This document shows positions 17,899 through 58,988 of a stretch of 59,403 nucleotides of DNA, one piece after another. This stretch comes from Calothrix sp. CSU_2_0. Lineage in GTDB: Bacteria > Cyanobacteriota > Cyanobacteriia > Cyanobacteriales > Nostocaceae. Within the stretch, counting starts at the first letter, position 1, and every line of letters begins with the position of its first letter. The translations under genes and the position numbers were made by a program. Below the pieces are notes generated by a model. It searched no databases. It worked only from the letters and a program-made list of their open reading frames with translations, and was not told the DNA's origin. The stretch is from NCBI GenBank assembly GCA_012034595.1, contig JAAUPE010000025.1, positions 1 to 59,403 on the forward strand. Direction: 5' to 3'.

Positions 17899-19871
17899 CT
17901 ACAAACCATCCAGCACGCTTAATTTACCCACCCAATCTTCATCATGTCGCAGAGTTAAGACTTGATAATCGGTGTTGTATTTGAGATCATCACGCTCAAT
18001 TTTATCCTGCTTTTTTTCTCTGAACTATCATGAACCGAACCATCGCAGAAAATAGCAATTTTATCTTCTTTGTAGAGAAAATCTGGCTTACAGTTAGCCT
18101 CTGGAATTAATTCCTGTGCTGCATCTGGTAATTTATAGCCGTGTTGATAAATCTCCCCCAACGCAAGCCTTTCAAAATCAGAATTAGGGTCTGTTTGTTC
18201 AAGTAACTTTTGATACTGTTGGTTGCGAGATGCTTCTTCAACTTCATTGACAATGCTACTTTCGACTAATTCCTCCAGCCAAGGTTTTACTAAATGGCGA
18301 TTTATTAAAGGGTGGTCGAATTGATTGCGGTAAGATAGCAAACATTCATAGCAAGCTTGAACACAATTATTTAATGGTTCTTTAAAATGGCAAATATCTA
18401 ACGCTGCATCGGCAATTTTTTGGAAAGCATCGGGTTGTTCGAGTAATTGAGAAAGTACTCCCGCACCTCCTTCTGCTGCTTCCCAAAATAGTAAATATTT
18501 GCCTTGTCCCAGTCGTTCGGAATCGAGTTCATCGGGTTCTAGTTTGTAGACTGCTTGAATTGCTGTTTCTAGTACATACTGCAAAGTAGTAATTAAACCT
18601 TCGCTGTCATCACCTTCGATACCAATGGGTTCTATAATTAGAATATTGCTGGTATCTTCCACTAAAATATGGACTTCAGTGTGAATATTTTCCGGTGATT
18701 GATTATTGGTATTATCTCCCCACTCTCCAGTTTTAATATCCAGTTTAAACCCCCGTTCATCTCGGTTTTTCTTCAAGCCGCGATTGATTCGCCATAAATG
18801 TGCTGTCGGGCTGTAGGTTAAACGTAGGAAAGGTTGTCCGCTTGAGGTGTGAACGATCGCGGTTTTGCGTTTTTGGTCACTGTAACGGTAGTGGGTGGTG
18901 ATATTGTAACCATATTTGAGGCGTTCTTCTTCGTCGCAGGTAATGCGATCGCGTCTTTGGGTAATTGCGGTTTCCATTGGCAACAATCGGCTAATTTTGG
19001 CGATATTGCCGTTGGTGTCGGGTTTGATTTGCACACCGCAATTTTCGCAGATATCCCGGTCATCGCTGGGATGGAAATAACCGCAGTTAAAGCAAACGCT
19101 AACTCGGTTATATTGGTTTTCGATACCACCGACGGCGATTTTGGTTTTTGTCACCATGAATTTACTACCTTCGTAGTAAACGATGTTATTGGGGGCAAAT
19201 TCCCGCAAAGCGACACTACGGGGACGGGAAATAAATTCACCACTGTCGGGACTGGTGCGGATATAGGCACGAACGGGAAGACGGGGGAAGTTAAAGCCTG
19301 GTAAAAATCCTTCGGCGGCAAAGTAGCGGTAGGGGTAAAATTCAAATTGAGTTTGATTTTTAGTTTGTAAGTTACCGACGAGTAAATCGATTTGGCGTTG
19401 GGCTTCCTTTTGTTCTGCGTCGGCTTTGTCCCGTTCTTCCTGGGTGCTATTTCCCCGTGCAGAGCGATCGATAATTAACCGTGATTTTTCTAGTTGGCTG
19501 ACTCCATCACTATAAAGTTTTCGCCAGCGATCGCAAGCTCGATCAAATGCTGCGATCGCATGATCTAGGGTGAATTTTAACCAGTCTGGGGAATACCAGG
19601 ATACTTTTTTCAGGTCATCGGTACAAAATTTATCTTCCAGAATTGATTGAATTGCTTCTAAACATTCATCTAGCTGATGCTGTGTCAAGGTTAGCTGGGT
19701 GCGAATGCTCCCTTTAAGGGGATAACCTTCCACTTCCAAGTCAAGAATTTGGTTCATTGATTCGCCAAACTGCATCCCAGTACGTGCTAACCAAACTGAA
19801 TAGATGTGTGATTTAATTAAATCCTGGTTGGCAAGTTCGAGTTTAGGTGCAGCAACAACCCCCGCTACCAT
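17899..19871 (-). pseudogene. DUF1998 / nuclease C-terminal part of a YprA-family helicase (split, second frameshift near the end)
   Basis: The open frame 17955-19871 starts MVAGVVAAPKLELANQDLIK, which normally continues directly from the helicase encoded upstream. It contains the DUF1998 zinc region: CFNCGYFHPSDDRDICENCG (about residue 243) and CVQACYECLLSYRNQFDHPL (about 507). A C-terminal nuclease-like domain follows with PDFLYKEDKIAIFCDGSVHD, a VSR/PD-(D/E)XK-type core. At the A7 run (plus 18011-18017) the frame is lost. In the neighbouring frame the expected ending (QDKIERDDLKYNTDYQVLTL, HDEDW, LSVLDGL) is intact to a TAG at 17899. One missing base explains it. The helicase TAG and this ATG overlap (ATGGTAG), so coupled translation as two chains is possible. 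Confidence 0.8.
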
Positions 19872-22800
19872 TGATTTTGGCGTTTGAAAAAATACTGATC
19901 GTGACCGCTACCAATAGAGGCGTAGGTAAATACTAATGCTTCCTGTCCGCTTCTCCCTGCACGTCCGCTCCGTTGGGCATAATTGGCGGGACTGGGGGGA
20001 ACGTTACGCATATGAACGACGCTGAGGTCGGAAATATCGATACCTAGTTCCATTGTGGGAGAGCAAAATAATGCAGCAAGTTTACCGTTACGAAAATCAT
20101 CTTCCCGCTCTTGCCTATCCTTACTGCTCACTTGTCCCGTATGTTCTCGTCCTTCCATCGATTTGATGCTGTGGGCATTATTTTGATAGAAGTTTTGGAA
20201 AAAGCTATTGATGGGAATATCAGTATTTTCATCCCCTTGTAAACGTTTCGATGTCAGGGGGTCTGCGGGTATTTGTTGAAGTTGGGAAGCTATCCAAGCT
20301 AGGGCATTTATTTTTAATTGTACTCCCTGGGGTTGCTCGGATAAGTAACCTGCGTCTTTCAATACGCCAATTAAGGCTGCAATTAATTCGTTGTATTGTT
20401 CCTCAGTTAAAGGTTGCAGCAACCAATCCCAAGCGGAGGAACGCAAAAATCTCCCGATTTTACTTCTGGCTGTGAGTTTAATGATGCTGAATTTATTGTA
20501 TTTGTAATTTTTACTATCAGTAGTTGCCCACTTGGCACTATGTAGATATTCATATCTCTCGACTTTCCAAGGTTCTTTGAGAGCTTGGGTAACTTCTCTG
20601 CGTAACTGTTCGATACCTTCTGGTTGTAAAATCTCCGCATCAATAGCTAGTTCCTTCCGCAATTGATCGAGAAATATTTTTGCTGCGTTGTAGCGATCGC
20701 TCGGTGTGGCTTGGAGTAAAATCGGATGACGATATTTTTGCCAGATTTTATCATTTTGACAAACCTCCTCCAGTTCCATATATTTCATTGTCAGCAAACC
20801 ACACTGTTCTAAATTTGGCTGGACAATTCTCCAACCCCGTCGCAAGTCTTCATAGAGACGATATTCGATTAAATCTCGAAAGGCATTTTCGTTATTGCGT
20901 TTCCCAATTCCCACCTCCGCAGGTGTAGAAGCATAATCTAGTTGCGACAAACCCATATATTGCACCACCGTGATTGCAAGTTGTTTGTGGGTTAATTCTT
21001 GGTTTTCTTGAATAGCACGGTTTAAAGCAGCACGGAGAAAACTCGTTTGCACAAAATCGTTAAAATGTCCCGCTTGCAGAGATGCATCCTGACGGTTATC
21101 GGTAAAGCTCAGGATTTTTGCGGCTTTGGCTTTCTCTCCGGTATATACTTGTTTGAGACGGTTAACGGTGGAAAGGCTGAGTAAAGTTGTTGCCGTACTT
21201 CTGCCTTCGCTACTCAAGCGCGATAGTTTCGCAAATTCCTTTTTGTTGCCATCATGCACCACACCGCAATTTAAACAAGTGCGGAAAGGTTTGGGAATAA
21301 ACCAGCATGGTGTACCTTCCAAGGGGGAAGTGGAAACTTTACCGTTACCCAGAACATAGATTTTGCGGGGGATAAATCTCTCATATTTTTTCTGTACTAC
21401 CCTTCCCAACTTCTTAGTTTCCCGGAACCAACTATCGGGAAGTCGTTCTTCGTCATTATAATCCCAAAGTCCAGTTTCATCGAGGCTGAGATAACCATCC
21501 TGGACATTCTCATCATCGTCGGGTACTTCCAACATCGTCGGTAGTTGGGGGACTACAGTATAGTTATTGGCATCATAACGCACCACATAATAATCGTGTC
21601 CGCATTCCCGGCAAAACACCAAGGGAAATAGCAAGCGGTTATTAGTTGTCGAATATTGTCCATCTAGGGTCAAAGTTCGCACATCATGGGGTTCGATAGT
21701 TGCGTAAACACTACCCCCTTGGGAAACAAACTGGTGTAAACGAAACGCTAACCCTTTGGTTTTACTTCCCCACAGAAACATCTGTTTGAGAATATTTAGG
21801 GATTGTTCGTAGTTGCGCTTTAGCGCATCCGGATCGAGGAGCGCTGAAGCGCAACTACGAGCCAATTTTTCTGCACCTTCTTCTAAGGTTATTGGTTGAC
21901 GACGTAGATAATCTCCTCCTACTTGCCCTTCTAAGCCAAAATTCATCTCAATCCAAGCAGCAAGGGGATGGTTCTGAAACTCCTCTAAAGTCTGCTGTAA
22001 TTCTGGAGGTAAACCCTTTTCTAAACATTCCCGCAAGTCTTCAATAGTAGGTTGGGGACGTTGTATGGAAGGTTCTAAGGTTTCATCAATGACATTATTA
22101 ACCGGAATTTCCACCCCAAACAGCTTACTTGCAACTTCTGCGACTACTTGACGACGTTCCTGACGAGTACCTTTTGAAGACATGGTTGCACTCGTACCAA
22201 TACAAAGTAATTCGTAATTTGATTTTTGGCTGCGTTGACGGAGTTTGCGAATCAAAATCGAAACATCTGCACCTTGTCTTCCTCGATAGGTGTGTAATTC
22301 GTCGAGTACCAGAAACTTGAGATGGGAAGAACTGACTAATACATTCTCATGCGATCGCGTTAGCATTAGCTCCAGCATCACATAATTGGTCAGCAATATC
22401 TGCGGTGGATTATTTTGAATTTGGGTTTTTTGTTCTAAGCTTTCCTGCCCGGTATATTTTTCGACACGGATATGAGTATTGGGGACATTATCGAGGAATT
22501 TTCGCAGTTCTTGTTCCTGGGAATTAATTAAAGCGTTCATGGGATAAACCAGAATCGCTCTCACACCTTGAATATCCGGGTTGTGGAGTAAATCGTTAAT
22601 AATCGGGACAACGTAAGTTAAACTTTTACCCGAACCCGTTCCTGTAGTGACTACATAGGGTTGTTGTTTTCGAGCAGTTTCAAAGGCTTGTTTTTGGTGA
22701 TAGTGGAAAGTAAAAGGTTTTCCCTCTTTGGTGCAAAAATACTTTTCGCTATCTTGATGGAGAATATTTTGCTTGACTAATTCCCTGACAGTTGCACCTG

Positions 22801-23299
22801 CTTTATATTTGGGATTTAATTGTACTAAAGGGTCAGTCCAAAGTTGTCCTTTATCTAATTCTTTATCAACAAATTCTTTTACTTTTTGGTTGCGAATTTT
22901 CAGAAAACTTTCGATATATTGACGATAATCACCGATTACTTCGTTACGAAATCGGAAAATATCGAGGTAATTCGTATTTTGGAGTGTTTCGGAAGCGATC
23001 GCTCCACCATCCCTAATTTTTGTGTTTTCTGGTGTGCGTCCCGATCGCCTATCGATGTAATCTGATAATTGTAGGGCAAAAGTGTCGCTCAAGGTCGTGG
23101 AATCGATAACTTCTGCGATTTGCATAAAATCCCAATCCTGGGGAATATTGGCAAATAATAAATCTAAAAATTCCAGTGTCACAGTGTCAACACCAGAACA
23201 ATCAACTAAAGCCAATCCCTGCCCTATTAATGCACTAATGGAAGTAATGGCAGTTTCTGGTTGTTGTAATAATTCTTGTAATTTAACTGGAATTTTCAT
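19865..23299 (-). CDS. YprA-family DEAD/DEAH helicase (DISARM/Druantia/ARMADA-related), N-terminal part
   Basis: This SF2 helicase has Walker A VVTTGTGSGKSLTYVVP (about residue 216), the DELH box LVLDELHTYRGRQGADVSIL (about 335), motif III GTSATM (about 369), motifs V/VI SPTMELGIDISDLSVVHMRN and NYAQRSGRAGRSG (about 1090-1120), and inserted zinc-binding pairs FCRECGHDYY and TCLNCGVVH. This is the YprA/MrfA-like layout at the centre of DISARM (DrmA-B), Druantia (DruE) and ARMADA defence. It ends KRQNQW-stop. One missing A (CAATGG for CAAATGG, 19870-19873) separates it from the DUF1998 part, and the intact protein would be about 1,800 residues. A repeat-derived peptide (ASALLDPDALKRNYEQS) is inserted near residues 480-500. 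It is last in the minus-strand island. Confidence 0.88.
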   Translation of the reverse strand: MKIPVKLQELLQQPETAITSISALIGQGLALVDCSGVDTVTLEFLDLLFANIPQDWDFMQIAEVIDSTTLSDTFALQLSDYIDRRSGRTPENTKIRDGGAIASETLQNTNYLDIFRFRNEVIGDYRQYIESFLKIRNQKVKEFVDKELDKGQLWTDPLVQLNPKYKAGATVRELVKQNILHQDSEKYFCTKEGKPFTFHYHQKQAFETARKQQPYVVTTGTGSGKSLTYVVPIINDLLHNPDIQGVRAILVYPMNALINSQEQELRKFLDNVPNTHIRVEKYTGQESLEQKTQIQNNPPQILLTNYVMLELMLTRSHENVLVSSSHLKFLVLDELHTYRGRQGADVSILIRKLRQRSQKSNYELLCIGTSATMSSKGTRQERRQVVAEVASKLFGVEIPVNNVIDETLEPSIQRPQPTIEDLRECLEKGLPPELQQTLEEFQNHPLAAWIEMNFGLEGQVGGDYLRRQPITLEEGAEKLARSCASALLDPDALKRNYEQSLNILKQMFLWGSKTKGLAFRLHQFVSQGGSVYATIEPHDVRTLTLDGQYSTTNNRLLFPLVFCRECGHDYYVVRYDANNYTVVPQLPTMLEVPDDDENVQDGYLSLDETGLWDYNDEERLPDSWFRETKKLGRVVQKKYERFIPRKIYVLGNGKVSTSPLEGTPCWFIPKPFRTCLNCGVVHDGNKKEFAKLSRLSSEGRSTATTLLSLSTVNRLKQVYTGEKAKAAKILSFTDNRQDASLQAGHFNDFVQTSFLRAALNRAIQENQELTHKQLAITVVQYMGLSQLDYASTPAEVGIGKRNNENAFRDLIEYRLYEDLRRGWRIVQPNLEQCGLLTMKYMELEEVCQNDKIWQKYRHPILLQATPSDRYNAAKIFLDQLRKELAIDAEILQPEGIEQLRREVTQALKEPWKVERYEYLHSAKWATTDSKNYKYNKFSIIKLTARSKIGRFLRSSAWDWLLQPLTEEQYNELIAALIGVLKDAGYLSEQPQGVQLKINALAWIASQLQQIPADPLTSKRLQGDENTDIPINSFFQNFYQNNAHSIKSMEGREHTGQVSSKDRQEREDDFRNGKLAALFCSPTMELGIDISDLSVVHMRNVPPSPANYAQRSGRAGRSGQEALVFTYASIGSGHDQYFFKRQNQW
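21807..21860. repeat. Dispersed palindrome in frame inside the YprA helicase
   Basis: The arms TCGTAGTTGCGC (21807) and GCGCAACTACGA (ending 21860) are perfect inverses flanking two smaller GCGC hairpins. The insert is read in frame as part of the helicase. Related copies lie at 28369-28422 and 32799-32895. Confidence 0.8.
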
Positions 23300-23354
23300 A
23301 GTAATAAGAATGAATAACTAAAAATTACGAACTATGTAGCTTGCTTCCGCGTAG

Positions 23355-23436
23355 CGGAATTACGAATTACGAATTACGAATTACGAATTACGAATTACGA
23401 ATTACGAATTACGAATTACGAATTACGAATTACGAA
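23355..23436. repeat. STRR: tandem heptanucleotide repeat
   Basis: About 11 uninterrupted copies of the 7-mer AATTACG (read GAATTAC) lie between the YprA gene and the UvrD gene. A related TTACGAACTATG start and a CTTCCGCGTAGCGG hairpin precede it at 23336-23354. This is the short tandemly repeated repetitive class known in filamentous cyanobacteria. The same 7-mer array is found three times in frame inside the methylase gene. Confidence 0.92.
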
Positions 23437-24555
23437 TTATATTGAGAGCCAATTTTCTCTTTTCAGAGAATCAATAAATTCAGAAGGATTGGATTGGGAA
23501 GCGCACACCATTAATGCACGCATTGCACGGGAACAGCCAACGTAAAATAATCGCCTTTGTTCGTTAATTGTAGCGATAATTTCTTCTGGCTGTAAGTTTT
23601 GATTGATACAAGGGATGTTATCCCGTTCTAATCCGACAATCACCACAAAAGGAAATTCCAATCCTTTCGCAGAATGGAGGGTTAAAACTTTGATATGGTG
23701 GGCTTTCAGGTCTATGTTTTTACCAGTCACAAACTCGGCTTTCAGACCTAATTGAGTTAATTCTTCTGCGTAGATTTTCCCCGCGTAGCTTGTTGTGCAT
23801 AATACTGCACCTCCGTGGAGGGGAAGACGGAATTTTTGTGCGGAACGAATAAAAAATTCGCGGATTTTTTTAATTTCTTCATCGCAACTATCAACTAATA
23901 ATAGAGTCGGTAAATCACCCTGGTGGGGTGAAGGTTCTTGATGGAGAGATTCCCTGTCCCCTGCTTCCGTATCTGCAAGGATGTCAGTACAAGCATTGAT
24001 GATTTGTGGTGTATTGCGGTAGTTGCGTTTGAGGACTAGAGTTCGTCCCGTAAATTTAAGTTCGCTGTGGATTTGTTTCCAACTAAAACCCCTTTGATAG
24101 AGCGATTGGGACGCATCCGCAGTAAAATACACCCCGTTTAAATCATTAGTGAGGGTGAGTAAAAACCTTAATGCGACTGGTGATAAATCCTGTGCTTCGT
24201 CGATAATAATTGCTTGGTAGGGTTTGGTGCTACTCTCTAAAGCCAATGTTAAAGCTTGCGATCGCAATTGTTCCCAAGTAGTCAGTCCATTTTTTGCCAT
24301 TAAAGCTATCCAGGTTTGATAAATTAACCAAATCGCTTCGCGGATATTGCTTTTTAGAGGTGTTCCCCTTCCCTGTCGTGGTGTTTGGATATATGTTTCG
24401 AGGGAGGAAATTCCCCAAGCTTGAATTACGGTTTGGATTTCCTGAAGCAGGTAATTTACACCCAATTTTTCTAGGGTTTGAGCGATGACTCGACTTTCAA
24501 ATACGTTTTTGCTGGGAATTTTAGTTTGGGAAATCGCTGCTTGGAGATATTTCAA
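23437..24555 (-). pseudogene. UvrD-like helicase, C-terminal part (separated by a 16-bp duplication)
   Basis: This frame carries the rest of a UvrD/Rep-type SF1A motor: Walker B AIIIDEAQDLSPVALRFLL, TADASQSLYQRGFSW, LKRNYRNTPQIINA, VLTLHSAKGLEFPFVVIVGL and RRLFYVGCSRAMRALMV. It lacks Walker A, which is in the upstream frame (24587-25555). The true reading runs through KPKFVGEQDCLKYLQ before the first ATG. A tandem 16-bp duplication at 24584-24613 shifts the frame between the halves; removing one copy restores YIQKYKKPKFVGEQD. The catalytic machinery is therefore split and the product probably dead unless suppressed. Confidence 0.85.
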
Positions 24556-24583
24556 GCAATCTTGTTCACCGACAAATTTAGGT

Positions 24584-24613
24584 TTTTTATATTTTTGTAT
24601 TTTTATATTTTTG
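24584..24613. repeat. 16-bp tandem duplication that breaks the RelE-UvrD gene
   Basis: The unit TTTTTATATTTTTGTA (24584-24599) is followed by a second copy at 24600-24613 (14 matching bases). Sixteen is not a multiple of three, so the duplication gives a frameshift and an immediate stop at 24587. Confidence 0.88.
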
Positions 24614-25555
24614 GATGTAGAAGGAATAAATTAGCGAATCAACCGTACTAACTTCAACTCCCAATGTTTCTGGTGCTTGTCCTAATAGTTGGGTTAGCAG
24701 TTGTTGGGAATAGGTGACTAAAGCGTTGGTGTAGGTTGTAAATAAAATCGCACTGCAACCACTATCCACCAGCTTTTTAACTCGATATAGTGCCAGGGTT
24801 GATTTTCCCGTACCTGGACCACCTTTGACAAGTACCGCACCATGACGACGAAAATCTAGTAATTTTTCCTGCTCTGGATCGAGTTTTAATAAAAAGGCTG
24901 TAATATCACCTGTAAAGAATTTATCTAAATCCTCCACATCTGCGAGTAAATATTCCGGTTGTTCTGCGATTTCTTCAATAGGACGGGGATAGAGATTATC
25001 GAGAATCCGAGCAATTAATCGATCGGGAATTGGTAATTCTAAAATTGCCTCTGAATTTTCAACTTTGAGGATATCCTGCCAATATTCTGATGGAATTCTC
25101 CATTGTTGCAAAAGGGAAGGATTGAATTTGAGCGGAAGTGGGGTAGTTAGGAAGGAATTGGATAGTTGGGGTTGGGAATCATTGATATTTTTTGAAGTAT
25201 TTTCTAGGGGAGGAATAATCGGAATACTAAGAATTTCTTCCCCAATTATCATTTCATCCGGTGGTGGGGATGGAATATCAAATTGGGGAATTTCGGTTTC
25301 ATAGGTTCTTTCGTCTCGTTTGCGAACGCTGAGAAGTTTTACCCAACCCTGTCCGAAGCTATAAATAACCCGGTAATCAGCGATGCGGATGCGATAGATA
25401 TTATCTTGATATCCTTTGAGCTTTTTCGCGTTACCTTGTGCAGAAATTGGGTCTTTTTCCAGAATTTTTATGACTTTGGTAACTTTTTTACTAATACTTT
25501 GGGGTAAATTTAGGAGTTCGTTTAGAAATGTATCTGTTACTGATAGTGTCCACAT
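24587..25555 (-). pseudogene. RelE-like domain fused to UvrD helicase, N-terminal part
   Basis: Residues 1-80 are a RelE/ParE-superfamily fold (FLNELLNLPQSISKKVTKVI, LKGYQDNIYRIRIADYRVIY, VKLLSVRKRDE). A Pro-rich linker (about 90-150) leads to a UvrD-type helicase start with LLDFRRHGAVLVKGGPGTGK (Walker A near residue 245) and AILFTTYTNALVTYSQQLL. The remaining motifs are in the next frame (23437-24555). The fusion of a toxin-like fold to a UvrD motor is known as a cyanobacterial architecture; what the RelE part does is unknown. It sits between the YprA helicase and the HNH/methylase genes, in the same direction as the island. Confidence 0.85.
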
Positions 25556-25777
25556 TGGTTTAATTTATAATTTGCGATCGCATTAGTATAATTTTTTTGG
25601 GAAAATATATTTTTGTATTTGATATAAATGATATAAACCTCATCAATCACGAAAAGTGGAGTTTTGTCAGGTGTTAGTTTTGTTACAGGTCTCGACGACG
25701 AACAATTGAGTTAAATACGCGAAAGTGCGTGCAACTGCTAAAATAAAGACAAATTACAGCAGCATTGCAGTAAACCT

Positions 25778-26014
25778 ATGACCAGCGTAGTAATCAAGCC
25801 TTCATCTTGGCTAACAGAGGGAATTCGGGTTGAGAGAGTCAACAATCTCAACCTTTTCAAGTTCACAGAGGAACTAGGGTTACGTATGCAAGAACTTCTT
25901 GATAAGAAAAAAGCCGACTTATTAACACCAGAAGAAGCTGCTGAATTAGAAGCTATAGGAGAATTAGACACCATATTTAGTTACATAAACGCGATAAATG
26001 TATCACAGTCGTGA
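25778..26014 (+). CDS. Small protein upstream of HNH nuclease, possibly antitoxin-like
   Basis: The protein has 78 residues: a short strand region (SVVIKPSSWLTEGIRVERVN) then a helical, acidic half (LGLRMQELLDKKKADLLTPE, EAAELEAIGELDTIF). Its stop overlaps the GTG of the HNH gene by 4 nt (GTGA), so the two are translationally coupled. The EELGLRMQELL..KKA.LLTPEE pattern is common in small cyanobacterial partners of nucleases and toxins. An antitoxin or regulatory role is a guess. Confidence 0.72.
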   Translation: MTSVVIKPSSWLTEGIRVERVNNLNLFKFTEELGLRMQELLDKKKADLLTPEEAAELEAIGELDTIFSYINAINVSQS

Positions 26015-26460
26015 CAATTTCTAATAGTAGCCAGGAACTTGTACGCAAGCGTGCTGAATATCGGTGTGAGTATTGCCGTTATCCAGAATTTCTTAGTACG
26101 TCTCCTCTCACAATTGACCATATTAATCCACAATCATTAGGTGGTTCGGATGATACTGATAATTTGGCATTAGCTTGTCGTCGCTGCAATGAACGTCATT
26201 ATAATTTCACTGTTGGTACTGACCCAGAAACTCAACAAGAAGTAGCATTATTTAATCCTCGCTGCCAAAAATGGGCTGACAATTTTATCTGGTCAGAAGA
26301 TGCTACGAAGATTATTGGTGTAACACCTATTGGTCGTGCAACTTGCAATCGTTTCGATTTAAATGATGAACGTCGCACTGACAATTTTATCCAAAAGTCT
26401 CGACGTTTTTGGGTCAAAGGTGGTTTTCACCCTCCTGATGAAGACCCACGTATTTCGTAA
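26011..26460 (+). CDS. HNH endonuclease
   Basis: The protein has 149 residues and starts at GTG 26011. The HNH core is CEYCRYPEFLSTSPLTIDHI, NPQSLGGSDDTDNLALACRR, CN; two zinc pairs (CEYC and CRRCN) frame the catalytic DH. The C-terminal part (QKWADNFIWSEDATKIIGVT, IGRATCNRFDLNDERR) is the usual tail of this small cyanobacterial HNH family. It is the only plus-strand gene inside the minus-strand defence island and converges on the methylase, so it may be a passenger or a nuclease component. Confidence 0.88.
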   Translation: MTISNSSQELVRKRAEYRCEYCRYPEFLSTSPLTIDHINPQSLGGSDDTDNLALACRRCNERHYNFTVGTDPETQQEVALFNPRCQKWADNFIWSEDATKIIGVTPIGRATCNRFDLNDERRTDNFIQKSRRFWVKGGFHPPDEDPRIS

Positions 26461-26564
26461 ATAAATTATTTTTAATCACCTCCTTTCAAATATTTTATCG
26501 AGAGCATCCCACTTTTTACTGATTCCGTCGTTCGTCCTCGCAATGACATACAAAAAATTATAAA

Positions 26565-29500
26565 TTACCTCCTTCCAAACATTTTATCCCAGGATTCTAG
26601 GACTAATCTTTGCGTGCGATATTCGCCAAATTGTTTAATTTCATTATTCTTTAATACCCGGAATGTTTCGCTGGGAAAATCTGCCCCGTACACGTCCGCA
26701 GGGTCGAGGATATATCGCAATTCATCGCGGGTGAGTCCGTAAAGTTTGGCGTAATATGCGTCTAATTCTGCTCTTAATATAGCCCGTCGGTTGCTGTTCC
26801 AAATAAATGGGGGTAATTCATAATTCGTAGTTCGTAATTCGTAATTATTGATTTCTGGATTGATGTTGTTAGCTTTTTGGTTACTTTGCCATTGTTTAAT
26901 GATTAAATTATGCATTTTATTATCTGAATCTTTCCATATGTCTTTTGCGAAGGGTTGCATATCCCATGCGGTGTAGACTAGTTCTAAGACGCGAGGGGCG
27001 ATAAAATCGATGTCTTCTTGGGTGTAGGATTCGGGAGGGAGGACAGGGAGTTGTCGCATTGTGAAATATTTAAGATGCGCTCCCCCTACTTTTTGTCTTG
27101 CAAAATAATCGAACACTATGCTATTTAAATTAGCAAGTAAACTCAATATTAACTTTGCATTATCTACTTGCGGTAGCATTAAAAGAATTGTATCTGCACA
27201 AGCTACTTTAGGAAGTATAGTAGCGATAACTGTTCGTTCACTAGCTGAACCTGTAATATCTCTCCAGCCAAGTAGCCAATTTTTATTCCATTTGTTTTCT
27301 AAAGCATTATTTAAATTATTTATTTCTATCCAGTAACGAGATAAATTCGTAAGGTAAGGGTCTTGTTTTAGTTTTTCTGTGGTTTGAGGTAACGTTGCTT
27401 CGTTAATATTTGCCTGTGTCGCTCCTTCATATGTTGCAAAACGATGATTAAATTGGTGAAACATTTTTGCCTCGTAAAGTGGAGTTAAACCATTATCTGT
27501 TTTGTTTTTAAATAAACCGCTATCATTAGCCATATCAAACATACGAGTAAATGAAACACTCCAAGGATTACAACCTGTTTTCTCATTATCTAAAACAGGG
27601 ACATGACGATAAATTTTTCTATTTAATTCAGCATCTACACCAGTACGGAATATAGGACAGTTAGGTTGGTTAGGATTGAATAATTCAAAGTCTGTTTTTT
27701 CTAAGATTATTTGTTTTTTGGATTCGGTGGCTTCTTTTACTGTGAGAGATAGCCATGTAAAGTTAATATTTTTAAACTTAGTTCCTTTTCCACCAACTAC
27801 AAAAATACAAAATGTTATATAGTCTTTAATTCCACTAAATATCATTTTTGAGTTCTTAAAACCTGTTAAGCTTTTTAATTGAAGTTGCTCAACAACATGA
27901 AAGAAAAATTTGGATGTATTTAAATCTGTAGCAATACCTGTAGGTAAAATTACTGCTGCTAGACCATGACTCGAAATAATATTTATGCTAGTTTCAGCAA
28001 ACACAGCATAAGTATTAATATCCCCTTTCGCTGTCAACGGAAATCTAGTTGAATCCCGAATAAACTTACCTTGAGCTTCAGCATCATGTTTCGCTTCTTT
28101 AAATTCTTGTGCTAACTGAGGATTTATCTTTGCTAATTCCTTAATCAACTTCTCCCGTGCAGCTTTATTTGCAGCATTCGCAATTTCCGCACTCCGAGAA
28201 GCGAAAAATTCCTTTTCTTGTAACTTAATCCGTTCCCAAGGAGGATTCCCCAACACGCAATCAAAACCACCTTGCTCAAATACTTCAGGAAACTCCAAAC
28301 ACCAATGGAAAAACCGCTTTTCTTCCGCTAACTTATTCGCAGCATCGACAATATTTTGTATTGATTGTTCGTAGTTGCGCTTTAGCGCTTCCGGATCAAG
28401 ATGCGCTGAAGCGCTACTACGAGCGTTACTACGAAGCAATCTTGTTAACGCTGCACTTGTGGGTAACAATTGCAAATTTTCCTCAGTCAAACTCATAAAA
28501 AACGCCGCAGTCCACAAATTACAAGCGGAAAAATCTCTCCACCAACCGGGATTTTTGTCTTGATTGCGACTTTGTTTATATCTTGCTTGCTTTTCTCTCA
28601 CTTCCTGGGGTGTGGTTTCGGCTATTTCTCCCAATTCCCGCGCATTTTCGATATATTCGGTGCGTTCGGTTTCTAAACTATCAAATATCGATAATTGTCC
28701 TTGATTTTCCCGTTCCTTCTTATTCCGCTTTTTCAACTGCGTCGATAAAGTCTTATCATCCCCCGTCACAGCTTGATATGCTTTATCGGGTATTCCCTCT
28801 TGTAAAACATCCAAATCCAACACACCCACAAGGGAATTCCCACATTTAATTCTATGATCTAAAAAATTCAATGGCATTCCGCTATAAAAACCTTCAATCC
28901 ATAGCGCTACTTTACATAAATCAACTGCTAAGGGGTTTAAATCCACCCCATAAATACAATTTTGAATCACATCACGAATCGCTAGATTTAAAGGTTCCTT
29001 TCCTGGTTCAGTTTCCCCCGTGCGAACCCGTGCTAATTCTTTACCGATGCGACGCGCTGCTGCTAACAAGAAATGTCCCGAACCACAAGCCGGATCGACT
29101 ATTTTTAGGGATAATAATGCATTTTGTAGAGACGCGAAATTTCGCGTCTCTACATTTTTTTCGTGGGCTGATTTTAGCTTTTCTTGGATTACTGGTTCTA
29201 GGGCAGTTTTAATTAATTGCTGTACCAGTTGGGGAGGGGTGTAAAATGAACCTGTAGTTTTGCGATCGCTTCCATAAACTAACACAAATTCATATATTCC
29301 TTGACTCGCCCTTACTTGGGGATGAAAATCAAGTAAACTTTCATAGACACTACCTAATTCTTCAACGTCTAGACTTGCGTAATTAACCCGTCGCAAGCCA
29401 TTTTTATCAACATACAAAGATAAATGTTTAATTGCTTGCAGCAAATCATAATTATCAATGGCACAATTATCAATATCGGGTAAAGTATTACTACCAAATA

Positions 29501-30677
29501 AATCCCCATTCAACGGAGACAAACCTAATACTTGTCCGCGCCAATTTTCATCAAATAATTTGAAAGTAACACACAAACCCCGCCATAAATCTTGAAAACC
29601 TTCCCGTCGATAACTCGGTTTTTCTGCTAATCGTCGCAACCGTTCCACACTATAATATTCCCGATAAATTCGCCCTTTCTCAACATCCTCCCCAATTAAT
29701 AATAACTCCCGCGCTTCTGCCACCATTAAAAATAGCAACCGATAAATTAAACGCAATAACTGACGGTATAATTCGTAATTCGTAAGTCGTAAGTCGTAAT
29801 TGGGAATTAATCCTAATTTTTGGCGTAAATGCTCGTTATGGGGATGTTGAATAAAGCCATTACCAAAAATTCGTAATGCTTCTTCCACTCCATCCCGCAA
29901 TTTATCCCGTACCCGTCCACCTTGTTGCAGGGTTTCTTGATGGTAAAATTCCAACAAACATTTATCAGCATCATCCACATCTTCCGGGAGACGGGAGCGA
30001 TGAAACAGCCGATAAAATATGCCAAATTCGGCAAAGTTTTCACCATTGAGAATTTGTTCTAAATCAAATTCAACATAGGATAATCGTGTCATCAACGAAG
30101 AATCACGCAACAATCGCCAACGATAACCATTTGTAGTAATTGCCCATAAATGTTCGGTTTTATTTAAATATTCCTGTACCAAACCATGCGCTGATAATCT
30201 CGGTGTTCCGCTAGGGGGACGTTGGTCTAATTTCAAACGACAACCAACAATATGAATGGGGGGATAATTTGTAATTCGTAAGTCGTAATTCGTAATTGCA
30301 TCTTTTGAGGTTAAAGCGCGGTGGGAAATTGCATAGATTTGTCCGTCTACTTCTTCAGCTTGACGAGTCAAAACAGGTTTATAACCGAGACTTTCTAACA
30401 ACGAAACAGCCCATTCACGGGTAATTGTGGTTGCGGTGTCATCTTCCTGAAGTCGTGCTAATTTGCGTTGAAATGCAGCCCAATAAGCTTTAGCATCACC
30501 CCAAGCTGTAGCAATTTCATCGGCTAATTTATCGGTTTTGGCTAATCCAAAATCCTCTGATTGTTGCCCCTTAATACTACCAGTTGATAATAAAGAAGTG
30601 ATATCAGCAGCTAGTATATTTCCTTCGATTTGAATAGCAGTAATAGTATTAGTAGCTTGCATAATTTTTATTTTCAC
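26565..30677 (-). CDS. Class I N6-adenine DNA methylase, Eco57I/DrmMI-like
   Basis: The protein has 1370 residues. Motif X/F region GSFYTPPQLVQQLIKTAL (about 477), SAM motif I VDPACGSGHFLLAAARR (about 525) and catalytic motif IV VLGNPPWERIK (about 812) mark a gamma-type adenine methylase, with large N- and C-terminal specificity-like regions. Together with the DrmD-type ATPase just upstream it resembles DISARM class 1 DrmMI, or a PglX/Eco57I-type enzyme in a related system. It would mark self DNA. The protein is inflated by translated repeats: three STRR arrays read as NYELRTTNYEL-like peptides, one hairpin read as VETRNFASL, and one palindrome read as SSASAHLDPEALKRNYEQS. The start may be M6 (MQATNTITAIQIEGN). 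Confidence 0.87.
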   Translation of the reverse strand: MKIKIMQATNTITAIQIEGNILAADITSLLSTGSIKGQQSEDFGLAKTDKLADEIATAWGDAKAYWAAFQRKLARLQEDDTATTITREWAVSLLESLGYKPVLTRQAEEVDGQIYAISHRALTSKDAITNYDLRITNYPPIHIVGCRLKLDQRPPSGTPRLSAHGLVQEYLNKTEHLWAITTNGYRWRLLRDSSLMTRLSYVEFDLEQILNGENFAEFGIFYRLFHRSRLPEDVDDADKCLLEFYHQETLQQGGRVRDKLRDGVEEALRIFGNGFIQHPHNEHLRQKLGLIPNYDLRLTNYELYRQLLRLIYRLLFLMVAEARELLLIGEDVEKGRIYREYYSVERLRRLAEKPSYRREGFQDLWRGLCVTFKLFDENWRGQVLGLSPLNGDLFGSNTLPDIDNCAIDNYDLLQAIKHLSLYVDKNGLRRVNYASLDVEELGSVYESLLDFHPQVRASQGIYEFVLVYGSDRKTTGSFYTPPQLVQQLIKTALEPVIQEKLKSAHEKNVETRNFASLQNALLSLKIVDPACGSGHFLLAAARRIGKELARVRTGETEPGKEPLNLAIRDVIQNCIYGVDLNPLAVDLCKVALWIEGFYSGMPLNFLDHRIKCGNSLVGVLDLDVLQEGIPDKAYQAVTGDDKTLSTQLKKRNKKERENQGQLSIFDSLETERTEYIENARELGEIAETTPQEVREKQARYKQSRNQDKNPGWWRDFSACNLWTAAFFMSLTEENLQLLPTSAALTRLLRSNARSSASAHLDPEALKRNYEQSIQNIVDAANKLAEEKRFFHWCLEFPEVFEQGGFDCVLGNPPWERIKLQEKEFFASRSAEIANAANKAAREKLIKELAKINPQLAQEFKEAKHDAEAQGKFIRDSTRFPLTAKGDINTYAVFAETSINIISSHGLAAVILPTGIATDLNTSKFFFHVVEQLQLKSLTGFKNSKMIFSGIKDYITFCIFVVGGKGTKFKNINFTWLSLTVKEATESKKQIILEKTDFELFNPNQPNCPIFRTGVDAELNRKIYRHVPVLDNEKTGCNPWSVSFTRMFDMANDSGLFKNKTDNGLTPLYEAKMFHQFNHRFATYEGATQANINEATLPQTTEKLKQDPYLTNLSRYWIEINNLNNALENKWNKNWLLGWRDITGSASERTVIATILPKVACADTILLMLPQVDNAKLILSLLANLNSIVFDYFARQKVGGAHLKYFTMRQLPVLPPESYTQEDIDFIAPRVLELVYTAWDMQPFAKDIWKDSDNKMHNLIIKQWQSNQKANNINPEINNYELRTTNYELPPFIWNSNRRAILRAELDAYYAKLYGLTRDELRYILDPADVYGADFPSETFRVLKNNEIKQFGEYRTQRLVLESWDKMFGRR
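26814..26847. repeat. STRR heptamers translated in the methylase (copy 1)
   Basis: Degenerate tandem GTAATTC/GTAGTTC heptamers are read on the minus strand as NNYELRTTNYELPP. Three heptamers make 21 nt or 7 codons, so the array keeps frame. Confidence 0.85.
28369..28422. repeat. Dispersed palindrome translated in the methylase
   Basis: TCGTAGTTGCGC with GCGCTACTACGA and inner GCGC hairpins, read as part of ASAHLDPEALKRNYEQS. It is followed by a second partial arm (GCGTTACTACGAAG). It is closely related to the copy in the YprA helicase gene (21807-21860), which gives almost the same peptide. Confidence 0.82.
29125..29154. repeat. Perfect 30-nt palindrome translated in the methylase
   Basis: TGTAGAGACGCGAAA and its exact inverse TTTCGCGTCTCTACA form a 15-bp perfect stem, read on the minus strand as VETRNFASL. 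The repeat family is widespread in filamentous cyanobacteria and another member is at 4029-4059. Confidence 0.88.
29767..29800. repeat. STRR heptamers translated in the methylase (copy 2)
   Basis: Tandem ATTCGTA/AGTCGTA heptamers are read on the minus strand as PNYDLRLTNYELY. Confidence 0.85.
30264..30299. repeat. STRR heptamers translated in the methylase (copy 3)
   Basis: Tandem GTAATTC/GTAAGTC heptamers are read on the minus strand as AITNYDLRITNYPP. Confidence 0.85.
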
Positions 30678-30679
30678 CC

Positions 30680-31278
30680 TTAATCTCTAATTGAGCTTGC
30701 TAAGATTCCTAAGATTTTCTTGATATCGCTTAAATAGTATTCATCCAAATCAATCGTGACAATATCAGATTGCAATTTTAAAAAACGCCAGTTTGTACCC
30801 GATGTGACTGTTCCATAAATAGTAGACATATCATTACCTTCCCTTTCATTAAAAATTCTCGCTGCCAACATTTCTGCAACACATTGTCCTAAACCACCAT
30901 TAATATTTTCTTTCTTTGCCTCAACAATGATAATTACAGGAGCCGTTAAGATAAATAATTCTGGCGAACGACTAATAATAAAATCGCAATTGCATTTAAA
31001 CCACGTTCATTGTCAACACTAAAATCAATTCCTGAAAATAAAGAAATTTGATTATTTTGCTGTTTCCTCACCTCAATTAGAATTGGAGAAATAATCATTT
31101 CGGAACGAGCTTTTTCTGTATTACTAGCAGTTGCTAAAGGAATATTTTGCTCGATAGTTTGTGTGAGTAAATTACTCGGTTCAACCTCATGAATATCCGA
31201 ATACATGCGGTAATTATCAGTAATTTTTAATCCAAACTCTTTGATAACTTTAGCTAAAGTAAAATCGCTGTAAGACAT
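30680..31278 (-). pseudogene. PD-(D/E)XK-like small protein of the defence island, frameshifted
   Basis: The N-terminal frame (30946-31278) runs from MSYSDFTLAKVIKEFGLKIT to DFSVDNERGLN and then leaves frame. The next frame, open to 30680, encodes NCDFIISRSPELFILTAPVI, IIVEAKKENINGGLGQCVAE and MLAARIFNEREGNDMSTIYG. Joined, they make a cyanobacterial protein of about 200 residues whose core (CDF.I, then VEAKK, then GLGQC) looks like a PD-(D/E)XK fold with D and ExK active-site residues. One missing G near plus 30992 explains the break, which lies just before the putative active site. It sits 4 nt after the DrmD-type gene and 2 nt before the methylase start, so it is part of the same operon. 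Confidence 0.78.
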
Positions 31279-31282
31279 AGTA

Positions 31283-34252
31283 TTACCCCCTGCGTTTTCC
31301 AGGTTGGAGAATGTATACTCCTAGAATATCGAGAGGTAGCTGTGGTTTAACAATAATTTGTCCTTCCTTGGTGATGGTGCGAACTCGTTTGTGGCTTTGG
31401 GAAAGTTTATGCGATCGCTCTATGGCAAATTTCTCTAAATCACCCTCTAACTCGCCAATATCTTCTAGCAATTCCCCGATTTCTTCTTGCTTGATAACTT
31501 TGGGAGTATCGCTAACTGGTAAGGATTTTTGTAACAACTCGTTGGCTATTTCCGGTTCTAACCACTTTGGCTGCGATGGAGAACCTGTAAACCCAATGAC
31601 AGCGCACTCTTCCGCTAATAATGTTGAGCCAGCGCGTTGCTGTTTGGAGCTTTTTGCTTCTAATAGATGACGCAACCTCACCAATAACAACGTCGTCCGC
31701 TTCTCCACAGCATCCGTGACGGTGTAACCACATCTTGCAGCAACGGGATTATCTTGGTTTACCAACGCATCCTCAAGGATATGACGCGCTAATCCCTCCA
31801 CTAATGGGTGATTGCGTCCGATATATTCCACCCCAGACGGTGCGGGATGGGTGAAAGTCAGCAATAACGGTTTTTCTCCGACAGCAGATTTTAGGAAGTT
31901 GGGAATTGAAGGTAATAGCCATTTTCCTTTTTTCTTATCGATGAGAGAACAATTTATGCGATCGCAAGCTGATTTGACGAACCTTTCCACATCTTCTTGG
32001 GAACCTAAAATTTGGTCAGAATCCATCAATTCCTGCTGTACTTCCTCCGGTTTAATACTGCGCTGTGCAAACCGAGTGCGACTGATTTTTTCTCTCTCGA
32101 CAGCTTTATCCCAACTGCTATGTACCAACTCCACCGCAGATTCTTCCCCATCGAGTAAATCTAACAACGATAGCTGTACCACATCTGTAGCTTTATCAAA
32201 CAGCGATTTAAATACCGCTTCCGAAACATTCGTACTATCCATTGGTACAGGAACAGTAATCCCCAAAGTCTTGTGAATCTGTACAGCTTTCCGCACCAAC
32301 ACATCCATCACCGCACCATCAACAGGATTATCTTGTCCTAAGAGTAAAAAAGTTTTTACCTTTTCTGCGGGTTGTCCATATCTATCTACACGACCTTCCC
32401 GTTGCTCTAAACGGTTGGGGTTCCAGGGTAAATCGTAGTGGAGGACAGCATTAAAGTGGGATTGGAGGTTAACACCTTCACTTAAACAATCAGTCGCAAC
32501 TAATATCCTTTGTGGATAGGATTTTAATTCCTCCAGACGAATTTCTCGCTCGTCTTCCGACTGTTCCCCAGTAATAGCAATTACTCTAACTTCGCCCTTC
32601 TTTTTCTCCAATTTTTGCCGCAGTGCTTCAGCCACATAATTAGCCGTTGCAATGTAACGACACCAGAGAATTGGATTGTGACCATCCTGAAGCAAAGATT
32701 CCACCGTCTCAATACAAGCTTGCAACTTAGAATCCTTTTTACCTTGTAAAGCCTCAGCAGCTTTGACAAACTCCCGAAACTTCCGCTCGTAATTTCGTTC
32801 GTAGTTGCGCTTAAGCGCTCTTTCCTCTTCTGGAAGATTGCGATCGCTTTCGGGATTGCAACTACCAATCTCAAGATGCGCTAAAGCGCTACTACAAACA
32901 TCTACAACTTGTTCCCGTTCGGTTGGATCGTAAACGTAGGAACTCATTAACTCATCGTCGATCGCCGCGACATCTTCCCCACTACCACCCCCAGATTTCT
33001 TGCTTAAAGTAGCGATCGCAGCTGCTGGTGAAGACATCACGCAACGAATCAACGCCAAAGCCGACCAATATCTACCCCGACGTTGGGCATAACTCATTTC
33101 GCTAGTAGTAGTTTTTACTAACCCCCGCGCAAAGTCATAAACATCCTCAAATAAACTTTTATACTCCTTCGAGAGTTTATAGGGCATTTCCGCCGATTCC
33201 CGCTCTGGGAAAGGCGTTTCATTCCCTAACCACAACTTGACATCAGCCCGTCGTCGCTGGATAAAGTGTTGGGCTAGGGTTTTACGCTGCTCCTCGGTGA
33301 GAAAATCCAAGGACAATTCCCCAAACTCTGGTTTCAATAAACCTAACAACGATAAAAATGCCTCTTCAATCCCACTGTGGGGAGTTGCGGTAAGTAAAAG
33401 TATATTTCTATCGGCTTTTGCAGCGATTTCTTGGATTAATTGATGACGCTGTTGCTGTGACGTACTCTTATTATTTCCACTAGCACAGGTGTGAGCTTCG
33501 TCTACAATCACCAAATCTGGGCAGTGAGTAATAAAACTTGCCTTTCTCCGCTCGGCTTTGGCGTAGTCCAAACTGACGATAATATGGCGGTAGTAACTAA
33601 AAATATGCTCGTCCCCCGGCACTACACGCTCCAGCTTAGAGGCTGTTCCAGAGCGAATTACCACCGCATCGATATGAAACTTCTCCCTCAATTCCTGCTG
33701 CCACTGGTCGCATAAATGGGGTGGACACAAAACAGCAATTCGCTTCACCTCACCCCGGTCTAAAAATTCACGGGCAATTAATCCAGCCTCAATAGTTTTA
33801 CCGATGCCAACATCGTCTGCAATTAGTAACCGCAGCGTTTCCAACCGCAATGCCATTAACAACGGCACTAATTGATAGGGACGGGGACGCAGCGACAACC
33901 TTCCCAAACAGCGAAAAGGTCCCGCACCGCTTCGCAATAACAATCGCGCTGCATCCATTAATACATTTGCTGCGGCATGGTCTTTAACTTGATTCGCCGA
34001 TGGTAAAGGAAAACTTGCTTCGGCGATCGCCTCCAGATTAGTCTCCAATAAATGTCGGTAAATGCCAGTGATTTCGTCCTCATTCCCAGATAAAGAGCGC
34101 AATCGCACCACTTCTAAGTTTTCGGAAGGCAAAACTACCCATTGGCGATCGCGGCAACGCACAATGGAACCTGGTTGTATCTGTTGTTGAGCCAGTGCGT
34201 TGCGGGGGTTGCCCCCGTTGTAGCAACTGGCGTTGTCAAGGGTATCTGTCAT
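31283..34252 (-). CDS. drmD: DrmD-type SNF2 helicase/ATPase
   Basis: The protein has 989 residues. A short N-terminal domain (QPGSIVRCRDRQWVVLPSEN, YRHLLETNLEAI) is followed by a Swi2/Snf2 motor: Walker A IADDVGIGKTIEAG (146-159), DEAH box LVIVDEAHTCA (247-257), LLLTATPHSGIEEAFLSLLG, and C-lobe ATDCLSEGVNLQSHF with WNPNRLEQREGRVDRYGQ. The order and the long C-terminal part match the DISARM class 1 protein DrmD. Repeat-derived peptides are present near the N-terminus (ASCYNGGNPRNALAQ) and mid-protein (ALKRNYERNYERK). It heads the run DrmD, PD-(D/E)XK, methylase, which looks like one transcription unit. Confidence 0.87.
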   Translation of the reverse strand: MTDTLDNASCYNGGNPRNALAQQQIQPGSIVRCRDRQWVVLPSENLEVVRLRSLSGNEDEITGIYRHLLETNLEAIAEASFPLPSANQVKDHAAANVLMDAARLLLRSGAGPFRCLGRLSLRPRPYQLVPLLMALRLETLRLLIADDVGIGKTIEAGLIAREFLDRGEVKRIAVLCPPHLCDQWQQELREKFHIDAVVIRSGTASKLERVVPGDEHIFSYYRHIIVSLDYAKAERRKASFITHCPDLVIVDEAHTCASGNNKSTSQQQRHQLIQEIAAKADRNILLLTATPHSGIEEAFLSLLGLLKPEFGELSLDFLTEEQRKTLAQHFIQRRRADVKLWLGNETPFPERESAEMPYKLSKEYKSLFEDVYDFARGLVKTTTSEMSYAQRRGRYWSALALIRCVMSSPAAAIATLSKKSGGGSGEDVAAIDDELMSSYVYDPTEREQVVDVCSSALAHLEIGSCNPESDRNLPEEERALKRNYERNYERKFREFVKAAEALQGKKDSKLQACIETVESLLQDGHNPILWCRYIATANYVAEALRQKLEKKKGEVRVIAITGEQSEDEREIRLEELKSYPQRILVATDCLSEGVNLQSHFNAVLHYDLPWNPNRLEQREGRVDRYGQPAEKVKTFLLLGQDNPVDGAVMDVLVRKAVQIHKTLGITVPVPMDSTNVSEAVFKSLFDKATDVVQLSLLDLLDGEESAVELVHSSWDKAVEREKISRTRFAQRSIKPEEVQQELMDSDQILGSQEDVERFVKSACDRINCSLIDKKKGKWLLPSIPNFLKSAVGEKPLLLTFTHPAPSGVEYIGRNHPLVEGLARHILEDALVNQDNPVAARCGYTVTDAVEKRTTLLLVRLRHLLEAKSSKQQRAGSTLLAEECAVIGFTGSPSQPKWLEPEIANELLQKSLPVSDTPKVIKQEEIGELLEDIGELEGDLEKFAIERSHKLSQSHKRVRTITKEGQIIVKPQLPLDILGVYILQPGKRRG
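32799..32895. repeat. Expanded dispersed palindrome translated in the DrmD-type gene
   Basis: The left arm TCGTAGTTGCGCTTAAGCGC (from 32799) and the right arm ATGCGCTAAAGCGCTACTAC (ending about 32895) belong to the 21807/28369 family. Here about 45 nt separate the arms, and the outer arm is duplicated (TCGTAATTTCG before it). It is read in frame as ALKRNYERNYERK and neighbours. Confidence 0.72.
34191..34231. repeat. Dispersed palindrome at the 5' end of the DrmD-type gene
   Basis: GCCAGTGCGTTGCGGGGGT and its imperfect inverse CCCCCGTTGTAGCAACTGGC form a long hairpin inside codons 8-22. A very similar element is at 49575-49615 in the replication gene. Confidence 0.82.
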
Positions 34253-54374: not shown

Positions 54375-54908
54375 GTGCGATTCGTTGGTTCGTAAATCAC
54401 GGTAATCAGCCCGTACATAACGAACCCAGCTAGCAATGGCTGAACTCTTAGATAGATAGAGGTGTAAATCCTCTCCGCGAGATTCAAGCGTGACTCCTTA
54501 TCTGCCCACACTGAGTAAACTCGATTTTTACAGAGTGAAGCTGGGAACAGGGTGCAATCAGACTTCTGTTATGGGAAGACACTGGCGCTAATGGGGAGTT
54601 CCTACGGTGAAACAGAGCCTAGAAAAGTAACCTAAATTCGAGCAGGACATAAGCTAAACCTGACTTTATCAGAGCCAAAACCCGCAGCACCTCCTTTAGT
54701 AGCTGCATGAATCTAGGGTTTCTGATGGTTAAATTGGCTACACCTAATGGAACACAACAATCTTTTAAGGGAACGAATAAAAACGAGTCAAGAGTCATGG
54801 GTAAGTCGATGCTCATGTAGGTATGACGAGATGCGGAACTCTCTTGATTCGGGTAGGATGTGGCGTAATTGCTACAAGGTATTCAGAAAACACTTAATGG
54901 AGCAGAGT

Positions 54909-55613: not shown

Positions 55614-55617
55614 GTGG

Positions 55618-58911: not shown

Positions 58912-58988
58912 GAATATCGGGAGCTGGGTGCATAGAAATAGGCACGCCCAGTTCTAACTGAGAGGTGCGGAGGATAATACCTCCCATC

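Follow-up and report, generated by a model that had tools for sequence, protein, structure and literature searches.

Which defence system occupies the minus strand at 17955-34252 of the window, the 59,403-nt stretch of Calothrix sp. CSU_2_0 DNA (contig JAAUPE010000025.1) analysed here, and whether its neighbouring genes belong to one system at all, are the questions raised by this locus. A sequence-only reading had described a DISARM- or ARMADA-like island with an unusual gene set and left open whether it was an ARMADA-type locus or a new variant. The ORF list and profile searches reveal a defence locus with four core genes, of which two are broken, together with passenger genes (Table 1). The locus is assigned here to type I ARMADA, with a RelE-GajB gene directly before the YprA-family helicase gene, so that the order is ArmA, ArmB, a variable slot, ArmD and ArmC (A-B-slot-D-C); unless its breaks are sequence errors, the copy is probably inactive as a result of recent damage. 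A probability of about 0.87 is given to this reading.

Table 1. Core genes and passengers of the locus, with positions in the window
Feature	Position	Strand	Basis
ArmA, SNF2/RapA (BrxHII-like) ATPase, 989 aa, open frame	31283-34252	-	Pfam SNF2-rel_dom and Helicase_C
Broken PD-(D/E)XK-like gene, piece 1, 110 aa	30946-31278	-	PADLOC PDLC01472, positions 2-51 of 146
Broken PD-(D/E)XK-like gene, piece 2	30680-30871	-	PADLOC PDLC01472, positions 85-139 of 146
ArmB, Eco57I/PglX-like adenine methyltransferase, 1370 aa, open frame	26565-30677	-	Pfam Eco57I, N6_Mtase
HNH nuclease gene, slot passenger	26011-26460	+	Pfam HNH
78-aa ORF paired with the HNH gene	25778-26014	+	Same pair in L046
ArmD fragment 1, RelE domain and start of GajB/UvrD-like helicase	24587-25555	-	Pfam UvrD N-terminus, weak YoeB/ParE
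ArmD fragment 2, remaining GajB/UvrD-like helicase, other frame	23437-24555	-	Pfam UvrD_C, PADLOC GajB
ArmC fragment 1, YprA-family helicase core	19865-23299	-	Pfam DEAD and Helicase_C
ArmC fragment 2, C-terminal module, MZB/DUF1998 and start of Vsr-like nuclease domain	17955-19871	-	Pfam MZB, frame comparison

The gene set proposed from the sequence alone is recovered in large part. An SNF2 ATPase, an Eco57I methylase, RelE and UvrD sequence, and a YprA-family helicase with MZB/DUF1998 all lie on the minus strand, and the HNH gene is indeed on the opposite strand inside the locus; two of the core genes, however, are frame-broken. Both parts of the proposed RelE-UvrD fusion are present, but they occupy two ORFs with a frame change between them. 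Likewise, the single chain proposed for helicase, DUF1998 and nuclease exists in relatives, and is already known for ARMADA from the main text of Bell et al. (PMC12458937), but the window copy is divided between two frames. Identity to locus L032, from a genome of the same genus (G002), reaches 90% for ArmA, 74.5% for ArmB and 94% for ArmD fragment 1, and ArmC fragment 1 is 92-94% identical to the open copy of that genome. A profile (A2) that includes ArmD fragment 1 matches solved RelE toxins, the best named one with E 1.1e-6. The C-terminal domain of ArmC gives weak matches: among 14 rows of relatives, at E up to 1, DUF559 was found in 13, MTES_1575 in 11 and Vsr in 4, with best E values of 4.7e-6, 8.6e-7 and 0.067, respectively, and a PDB profile search gave at best a weak E of 0.01, to a helicase.

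A search of the same genome found no second close copy of ArmC or ArmD, and weaker YprA-like matches on other contigs. One of the YprA-like proteins, at 17868-20885 of contig C132 (L002, L004), lies inside a 1,930-aa frame and is 39-42% identical in the matched stretches. The locus also carries repeats. Heptamer-type repeats (GAATTAC) lie between ArmC and ArmD at 23301-23453, and the open frame of ArmB contains short-repeat insertions similar to them. A palindromic repeat is found within the open frames of ArmC (21801-21862), ArmB (28363-28424) and ArmA (32800-32896). Its 19-base arm, with at most one mismatch, has four matches in the 7.4 Mb genome, all at this locus, and 271 in relative G041, with any match in 22 of 60 relatives; the repeat may be a mark of foreign operon origin.

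ARMADA was described in 2025 in a preprint (Bell et al., PMC12458937). According to its main text, type I loci are ordered C-A-B or, in many archaea and cyanobacteria, A-B-C, whereas type II loci, among them that of E. coli ATCC 8739, are ordered A-B-C and almost always followed by a RelE-GajB protein, ArmD. In both types the YprA protein is described as one chain ending in a Vsr-type nuclease. The loci collected for the present comparison follow this pattern: E. coli ATCC 8739 (L146) and four further type II loci are all A-B-C-D, ArmC comes first in the Deinococcus, Nocardioides, Roseomonas, Hydrogenimonas and Chlorohelix (C-A-B) loci, and the Thermus and Haloquadratum loci are A-B-C. The Calothrix locus shares with type I the BrxHII-like SNF2 protein (ArmA) and PglX-like methylase (ArmB) in the same cluster, the YprA helicase with DUF1998, the position of A and B before C as stated for many cyanobacteria, and the placement of ArmC in the tree. 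A C-terminal Vsr-type nuclease on ArmC is a candidate further resemblance, with weak profile matches in relatives and a tail that is out of frame in the window.

This placement comes from a tree of 36 rows made by a quick method with SH-aLRT support only and rooted on two DruE rows with flagged long branches. The 92-94% identical L032 protein stood in for the window fragments, together with 11 other window-type rows; type I labels were taken from gene order and similarity and not from the type I reference protein of Bell et al. One starred group, beside Chlorohelix, contains the 12 window-type rows and lies within 26 type I and window-type rows, while the five type II rows form a separate starred group and three rows of a divergent lineage, termed lineage X, a third. 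The phylogeny that the sequence-only reading had called for thus groups window-type ArmC with type I rows and apart from type II, and gene content, the tree position of the relatives and the neighbouring genes together uphold its proposal of an ARMADA-type locus.

The locus differs from type I as described in three respects: RelE-GajB stands directly before ArmC, although the main text of Bell et al. gives RelE-GajB for type II only; a variable slot follows ArmB; and the window copy is broken. Type II shares the same four kinds of protein, but membership in it was rejected, since the order here is A-B-D-C rather than A-B-C-D, ArmC falls in another starred group, and ArmD belongs to a different family, with L146 ArmD 23.5% identical to a window-type ArmD and the compared pairs at 22-24%. 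A word search of the main text of Bell et al., with the supplementary tables outside its range, found RelE twice, both times for type II, and RelE-GajB neither in type I ARMADA nor before drmA. None of the titles or opening abstract lines in the literature listings refers to RelE-GajB in connection with type I ARMADA or with DISARM. ARMADA I itself is known; what appears new, as far as this word search of the main text shows, is RelE-GajB directly before type I ArmC, and before drmA.

Other named systems share parts of this gene set. The SNF2 ATPase had been called DrmD and, with an adenine methylase, taken to indicate class 1 DISARM. The labels of ArmA conflict in PADLOC, where the best match, contrary to the ARMADA assignment, is DpdE at 673 bits, against 326 bits for DrmD; in NCBIfam, DrmD scores 365.6 bits against a cut-off of 610 and DpdE 219 against 500, so neither curated name applies. 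That the locus is a variant of class 1 DISARM is very improbable. An SNF2 protein and an adenine methylase are present, with PADLOC scores of 326 bits for DrmD and 280 bits for DrmMI, but in a cyanobacterial DISARM locus (L161) the DrmMI score is 1,826 bits and DrmA and DrmB are separate, and no PLD nuclease was found among the locus proteins by Pfam. A DrmA/DrmB pair was also missing: among the PADLOC families listed for the locus proteins (25 of 46 in the case of the first ArmC fragment), DrmA matches were weak and DrmB was absent. DISARM class 1 membership was rejected on the DrmD cut-off, and the two chains of ArmC are a break of a one-chain protein and not such a pair. The RelE-UvrD protein, proposed as a replacement for drmC, corresponds here to ArmD, but RelE-GajB does adjoin DISARM genes elsewhere. 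In cyanobacterial DISARM class 1 loci of this kind (L161 and others), a RelE-GajB about 37% identical lies directly upstream of the YprA-family gene, with a methylase further upstream where the sequence extends; these loci differ in having DrmA and DrmB as separate genes and a DrmMI from another methylase group.

Dpd membership was rejected on the DpdE cut-off, and no dpd biosynthesis gene was found among the ten proteins scanned. Druantia shares the YprA-family helicase, and the first ArmC fragment scores 274.5 bits on PADLOC DruE3, but DruE is separate in the tree (on long branches), and ArmA and ArmB are present here instead of Druantia proteins. With DruE apart in the tree and no partner protein among the ten proteins scanned, this membership was rejected as well.

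How far the arrangement is conserved was assessed in a sample of 388 genomes of the window's class; with a threshold of E 1e-60, ArmC matches were found in 49 of them and RelE-GajB matches in 48. Forty-one window-type loci were examined, the window included; a degenerate locus (L047), loci of other or divergent lineages (L048, L103-L111) and plasmid loci (L157, L158) stand outside this count. In 32 of the 41 loci, ArmB was seen ahead of ArmC on one and the same strand (31 by script, and L044, with its displaced ArmC fragment, by hand), and the other nine have less than 6 kb of upstream DNA. ArmD is directly upstream of ArmC in 19 of 41, with gaps of 15-205 bp between matches. Plasmid pPg_03 of Pseudanabaena galeata CCNP1313 (L144) is an example of an A-B-D-C locus whose genes are open. 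Where both ArmB and ArmC are seen, 16 loci have ArmD, three have all or part of another module, X298/X235 (L033, L044, L046), and 13 have neither; among the nine with short upstream DNA, the corresponding numbers are three, one and five. ArmD is therefore optional, being missing from 16 of the 32 loci with ArmB and ArmC seen.

The stretch behind ArmB is a variable slot. Pfam identifies XisH, XisI, TumE and ParA/ParB-like genes there in other loci, annotation adds genes for PIN, Rpn and Uma2 proteins, and some ORFs resemble transposases by eye. At the place of ArmD, L033 (9617-11217) and L080 (74-1686) carry the two-gene X298/X235 module, with proteins of 298 aa and about 240 aa, and L044 (10222-10956) only its second gene. 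Neither protein has a Pfam or NCBIfam match, and PDB profile searches stayed at chance level (E no better than 0.27); for X235, PADLOC gives a single weak match, to PRTase_III-A (E 8.9e-4). In the window, the plus-strand 78-aa ORF, which has no PADLOC match, and the HNH gene sit between the methylase and RelE-UvrD genes. A 93% identical HNH gene occupies the same slot of the same-genus locus L046, and it occurs in these two of the 41 loci only; the HNH gene was therefore rejected as a core gene.

A small PD-(D/E)XK protein between the SNF2 and methylase genes had been regarded as an unrecognised core member. Its two ORFs match separate parts of one PADLOC model, which indicates one gene in two pieces. 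At E 1e-3, tblastn matched neither piece in any of the 40 other window-type loci or of 15 further ARMADA loci, two of the latter duplicating records that were in the count before. Broken here and absent from 55 other loci, the protein was rejected as a core component. The survey of cyanobacterial genomes proposed for it confirms that the core gene set recurs, but the pairing with the small PD-(D/E)XK protein was not found in the 40 other loci. As the window shows, a fragment of a damaged passenger gene can pass for a small new core gene.

These counts also bear on the possibility that the neighbours form a chance defence island and not one system, an outcome that had been named beforehand as a refutation. 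A slot filled with unrelated genes (toxin-antitoxin, XisH/XisI, ParA/ParB-like, HNH) and the absence of ArmD from half of the loci where this is visible would fit such an island. Set against this, all 32 loci with sufficient upstream DNA have ArmB ahead of ArmC on one strand, and in 38 of 49 loci, with six more cut off, the gene that directly follows RelE-GajB is of the YprA family. A chance assembly is thus hardly credible for ArmA, ArmB, ArmC and ArmD, and is accepted for the PD-(D/E)XK and HNH genes.

The state of this particular copy follows from its alignment with L032. In ArmD there is one single-base frame change, between the two fragments. ArmC has two, the second within the C-terminal nuclease-like domain, so that the tail of ArmC in the window runs out of the relatives' frame inside that domain; a third single-base difference, at the edge of the aligned stretch, was left out of the break count. 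The gaps in the ArmA and ArmB alignments cancel out, and both frames are open. ArmC is a single frame of at least 1,680 aa in 35 of 40 other window-type loci, a share that is inflated because the regions fetched (34) were mainly those with long or full-length ArmC matches. In G002, ArmA, ArmB and ArmC are open in the same order, and ArmC is one frame of 1,822 aa. Relative to this genome, dN/dS is 0.13 for ArmA and 0.29 for ArmB; the ArmD pieces have values of 0.27 and 0.11, those of ArmC 0.09 and 0.12. These low values show selection on either side of the breaks and are compatible with very recent breaks, with read errors or with function of the split chains.

The same-genus relatives are themselves altered in the slot. 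ArmD of G002 has lost its 5' end, with no start codon between the upstream stop and the RelE domain. In G001 (locus L046) no ArmD was seen, and pieces of another slot module accompany the shared HNH gene. ORFs just upstream of ArmD in G002 resemble an IS630-type transposase by eye. In G034, an ORF at 14757-16057 of L041, likewise resembling a transposase by eye, lies inside ArmC, which makes this another damaged ARMADA copy.

The frame breaks in ArmD and ArmC thus suggest that the window copy is probably inactive, and recently so, unless they are errors of assembly or sequencing. In the latter case the window would carry a working A-B-D-C ARMADA locus. This is a serious possibility, if not the expected one: the breaks are single-base frame changes, the broken pieces have dN/dS values (0.09-0.27) like those of the open ArmA and ArmB (0.13 and 0.29), the assembly consists of 306 contigs, and other genes in the window may be broken too, for example those for Cas1 and reverse transcriptase, whose ORFs overlap in different frames. 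Against it, ArmA, ArmB and many further long ORFs of the window are open, and the lost 5' end of ArmD in G002 and the slot module in pieces in G001 indicate that decay of the slot is not confined to the window. It is also conceivable, though unlikely, that ArmC works here as two chains, one with the helicase core and the other forming the C-terminal canopy, as in DrmA and DrmB of DISARM. At the junction of helicase core and C-terminal module, the second ORF starts, with an ATG, within the last bases of the first (19865-19871), and such a separation is sporadic outside DISARM according to the main text of Bell et al. (PMC12458937). The tail of this protein, however, also leaves the relatives' frame in the nuclease-like domain, ArmD is broken as well, and one chain of at least 1,680 aa is found in 35 of the 40 other loci, a sample made mainly of full-length matches.

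Other features of the window lie outside the locus. At 509-2529 and 55-159, ORFs for Cas1 and reverse transcriptase overlap in different frames beside CRISPR repeats and represent either two genes or a broken RT-Cas1 fusion. At 37597-39987, NACHT and metallophosphoesterase genes adjoin and match different parts of the PADLOC candidate PDC-S60. Group II intron pieces at 54747-58996 comprise two matches to Rfam intron families together with reverse transcriptase ORFs, of which one is partial.

The pairing of RelE-GajB with a YprA-family gene extends beyond ARMADA. In total, 49 cyanobacterial RelE-GajB loci were obtained from 51 rows, the two window fragments being counted as one, as were two G216 copies. 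A YprA-family gene follows directly on the same strand in 38 of these: 17 with window-type ArmC (ARMADA I), two of lineage X and 19 with DISARM drmA. Of the rest, six reach the end of the available DNA within 1,500 bp, and five extend further but show no such gene there. Matches are 9-205 bp apart in window-type loci and overlap by a few bases in lineage X, and the start of the drmA match lies 330-1,469 bp away in the DISARM loci (L159-L163, L169, L170, L172, L177-L184, L186, L187, L191). In the available DNA of these 19 loci, tblastn detected DrmB in 16 and DrmMI in nine; PADLOC profiles, applied to two of them, identified DrmMI (1,826 bits), DrmA and DrmB in L161, and DrmA and DrmB in L169. 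Near RelE-GajB, two of the 19 loci (L169, 2387-7462; L178) encode a protein of 1,692 aa that combines DpdF-like with GajB-like helicase parts.

In a tree with 37 RelE-GajB proteins and its root on the type II rows, the five type II proteins form a starred branch of their own (23.5% identity to a window-type protein), and eight DISARM proteins form a starred group with one locus cut by a contig end (36.9%). The three lineage-X proteins (58.9%) fall among the window-type ones, although the forks there are moderate, with 88/83 at best for the join; this position suggests exchange between systems. Lineage X itself, represented by L048, L111, L152 (the same as record L168) and L197, comes from Pseudanabaena, two other cyanobacteria and Chloroploca. 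Its order is A-B-D-C in L111 and L152, where A was seen, and the Chloroploca contig shows, among the matches listed, a methylase, RelE-GajB and lineage-X ArmC in that order.

Outside these groups, a profile scan of named genomes, which is no census, returned mostly other UvrD helicases among the matches listed. In the DISARM loci of Planotetraspora and Actinomadura (L236, L237), a type II-like RelE-GajB starts 85 and 180 bp behind the DrmB match, again among the matches listed. In Deinococcus sp. NW-56, RelE-GajB (L151, 13980-16001; 33.8% identity) is found in a BREX locus, between brxC and a methylase gene. It is tentatively proposed, at somewhat less than even odds, that RelE-GajB and the YprA helicase form a portable two-gene effector unit, with RelE-GajB directly upstream of the YprA gene, that has joined at least three SNF2-methylase front ends in cyanobacteria (ARMADA I, the divergent ARMADA-like lineage X and DISARM) by exchange between systems and not by descent within type II ARMADA.

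The proposed mechanism draws on the type II system in E. coli and on knowledge of the individual domains. According to the main text of Bell et al. (PMC12458937), the four-gene type II ARMADA tested in E. coli protects directly and non-abortively, and mutants of the ArmD Walker B and ArmB SAM motifs lose activity only in part. By analogy, ArmB of intact relatives would methylate host DNA as self. ArmA, a putative translocase, and ArmC, with its helicase, canopy module and Vsr-like nuclease, would engage unmarked or replicating phage DNA, then unwind and cut it. ArmD may move along the exposed single strand with its GajB-like motor and in this way carry its RelE domain, an RNase, close enough to the engaged DNA to reach phage transcripts there. 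In type I loci, ArmD probably strengthens or widens defence and is not essential, because 16 of the 32 loci do without it.

The core gene set recurs in many cyanobacteria, and the natural type I loci with and without ArmD offer a direct test of what RelE-GajB contributes. If the portable unit is real, type I loci could gain or lose RelE-GajB, and an RNase-bearing motor would be a general partner of YprA defence helicases. If the pairing is functional, several YprA-based systems, among them DISARM, would share RelE-GajB as an interchangeable component, and it would be a misleading marker for classifying them.
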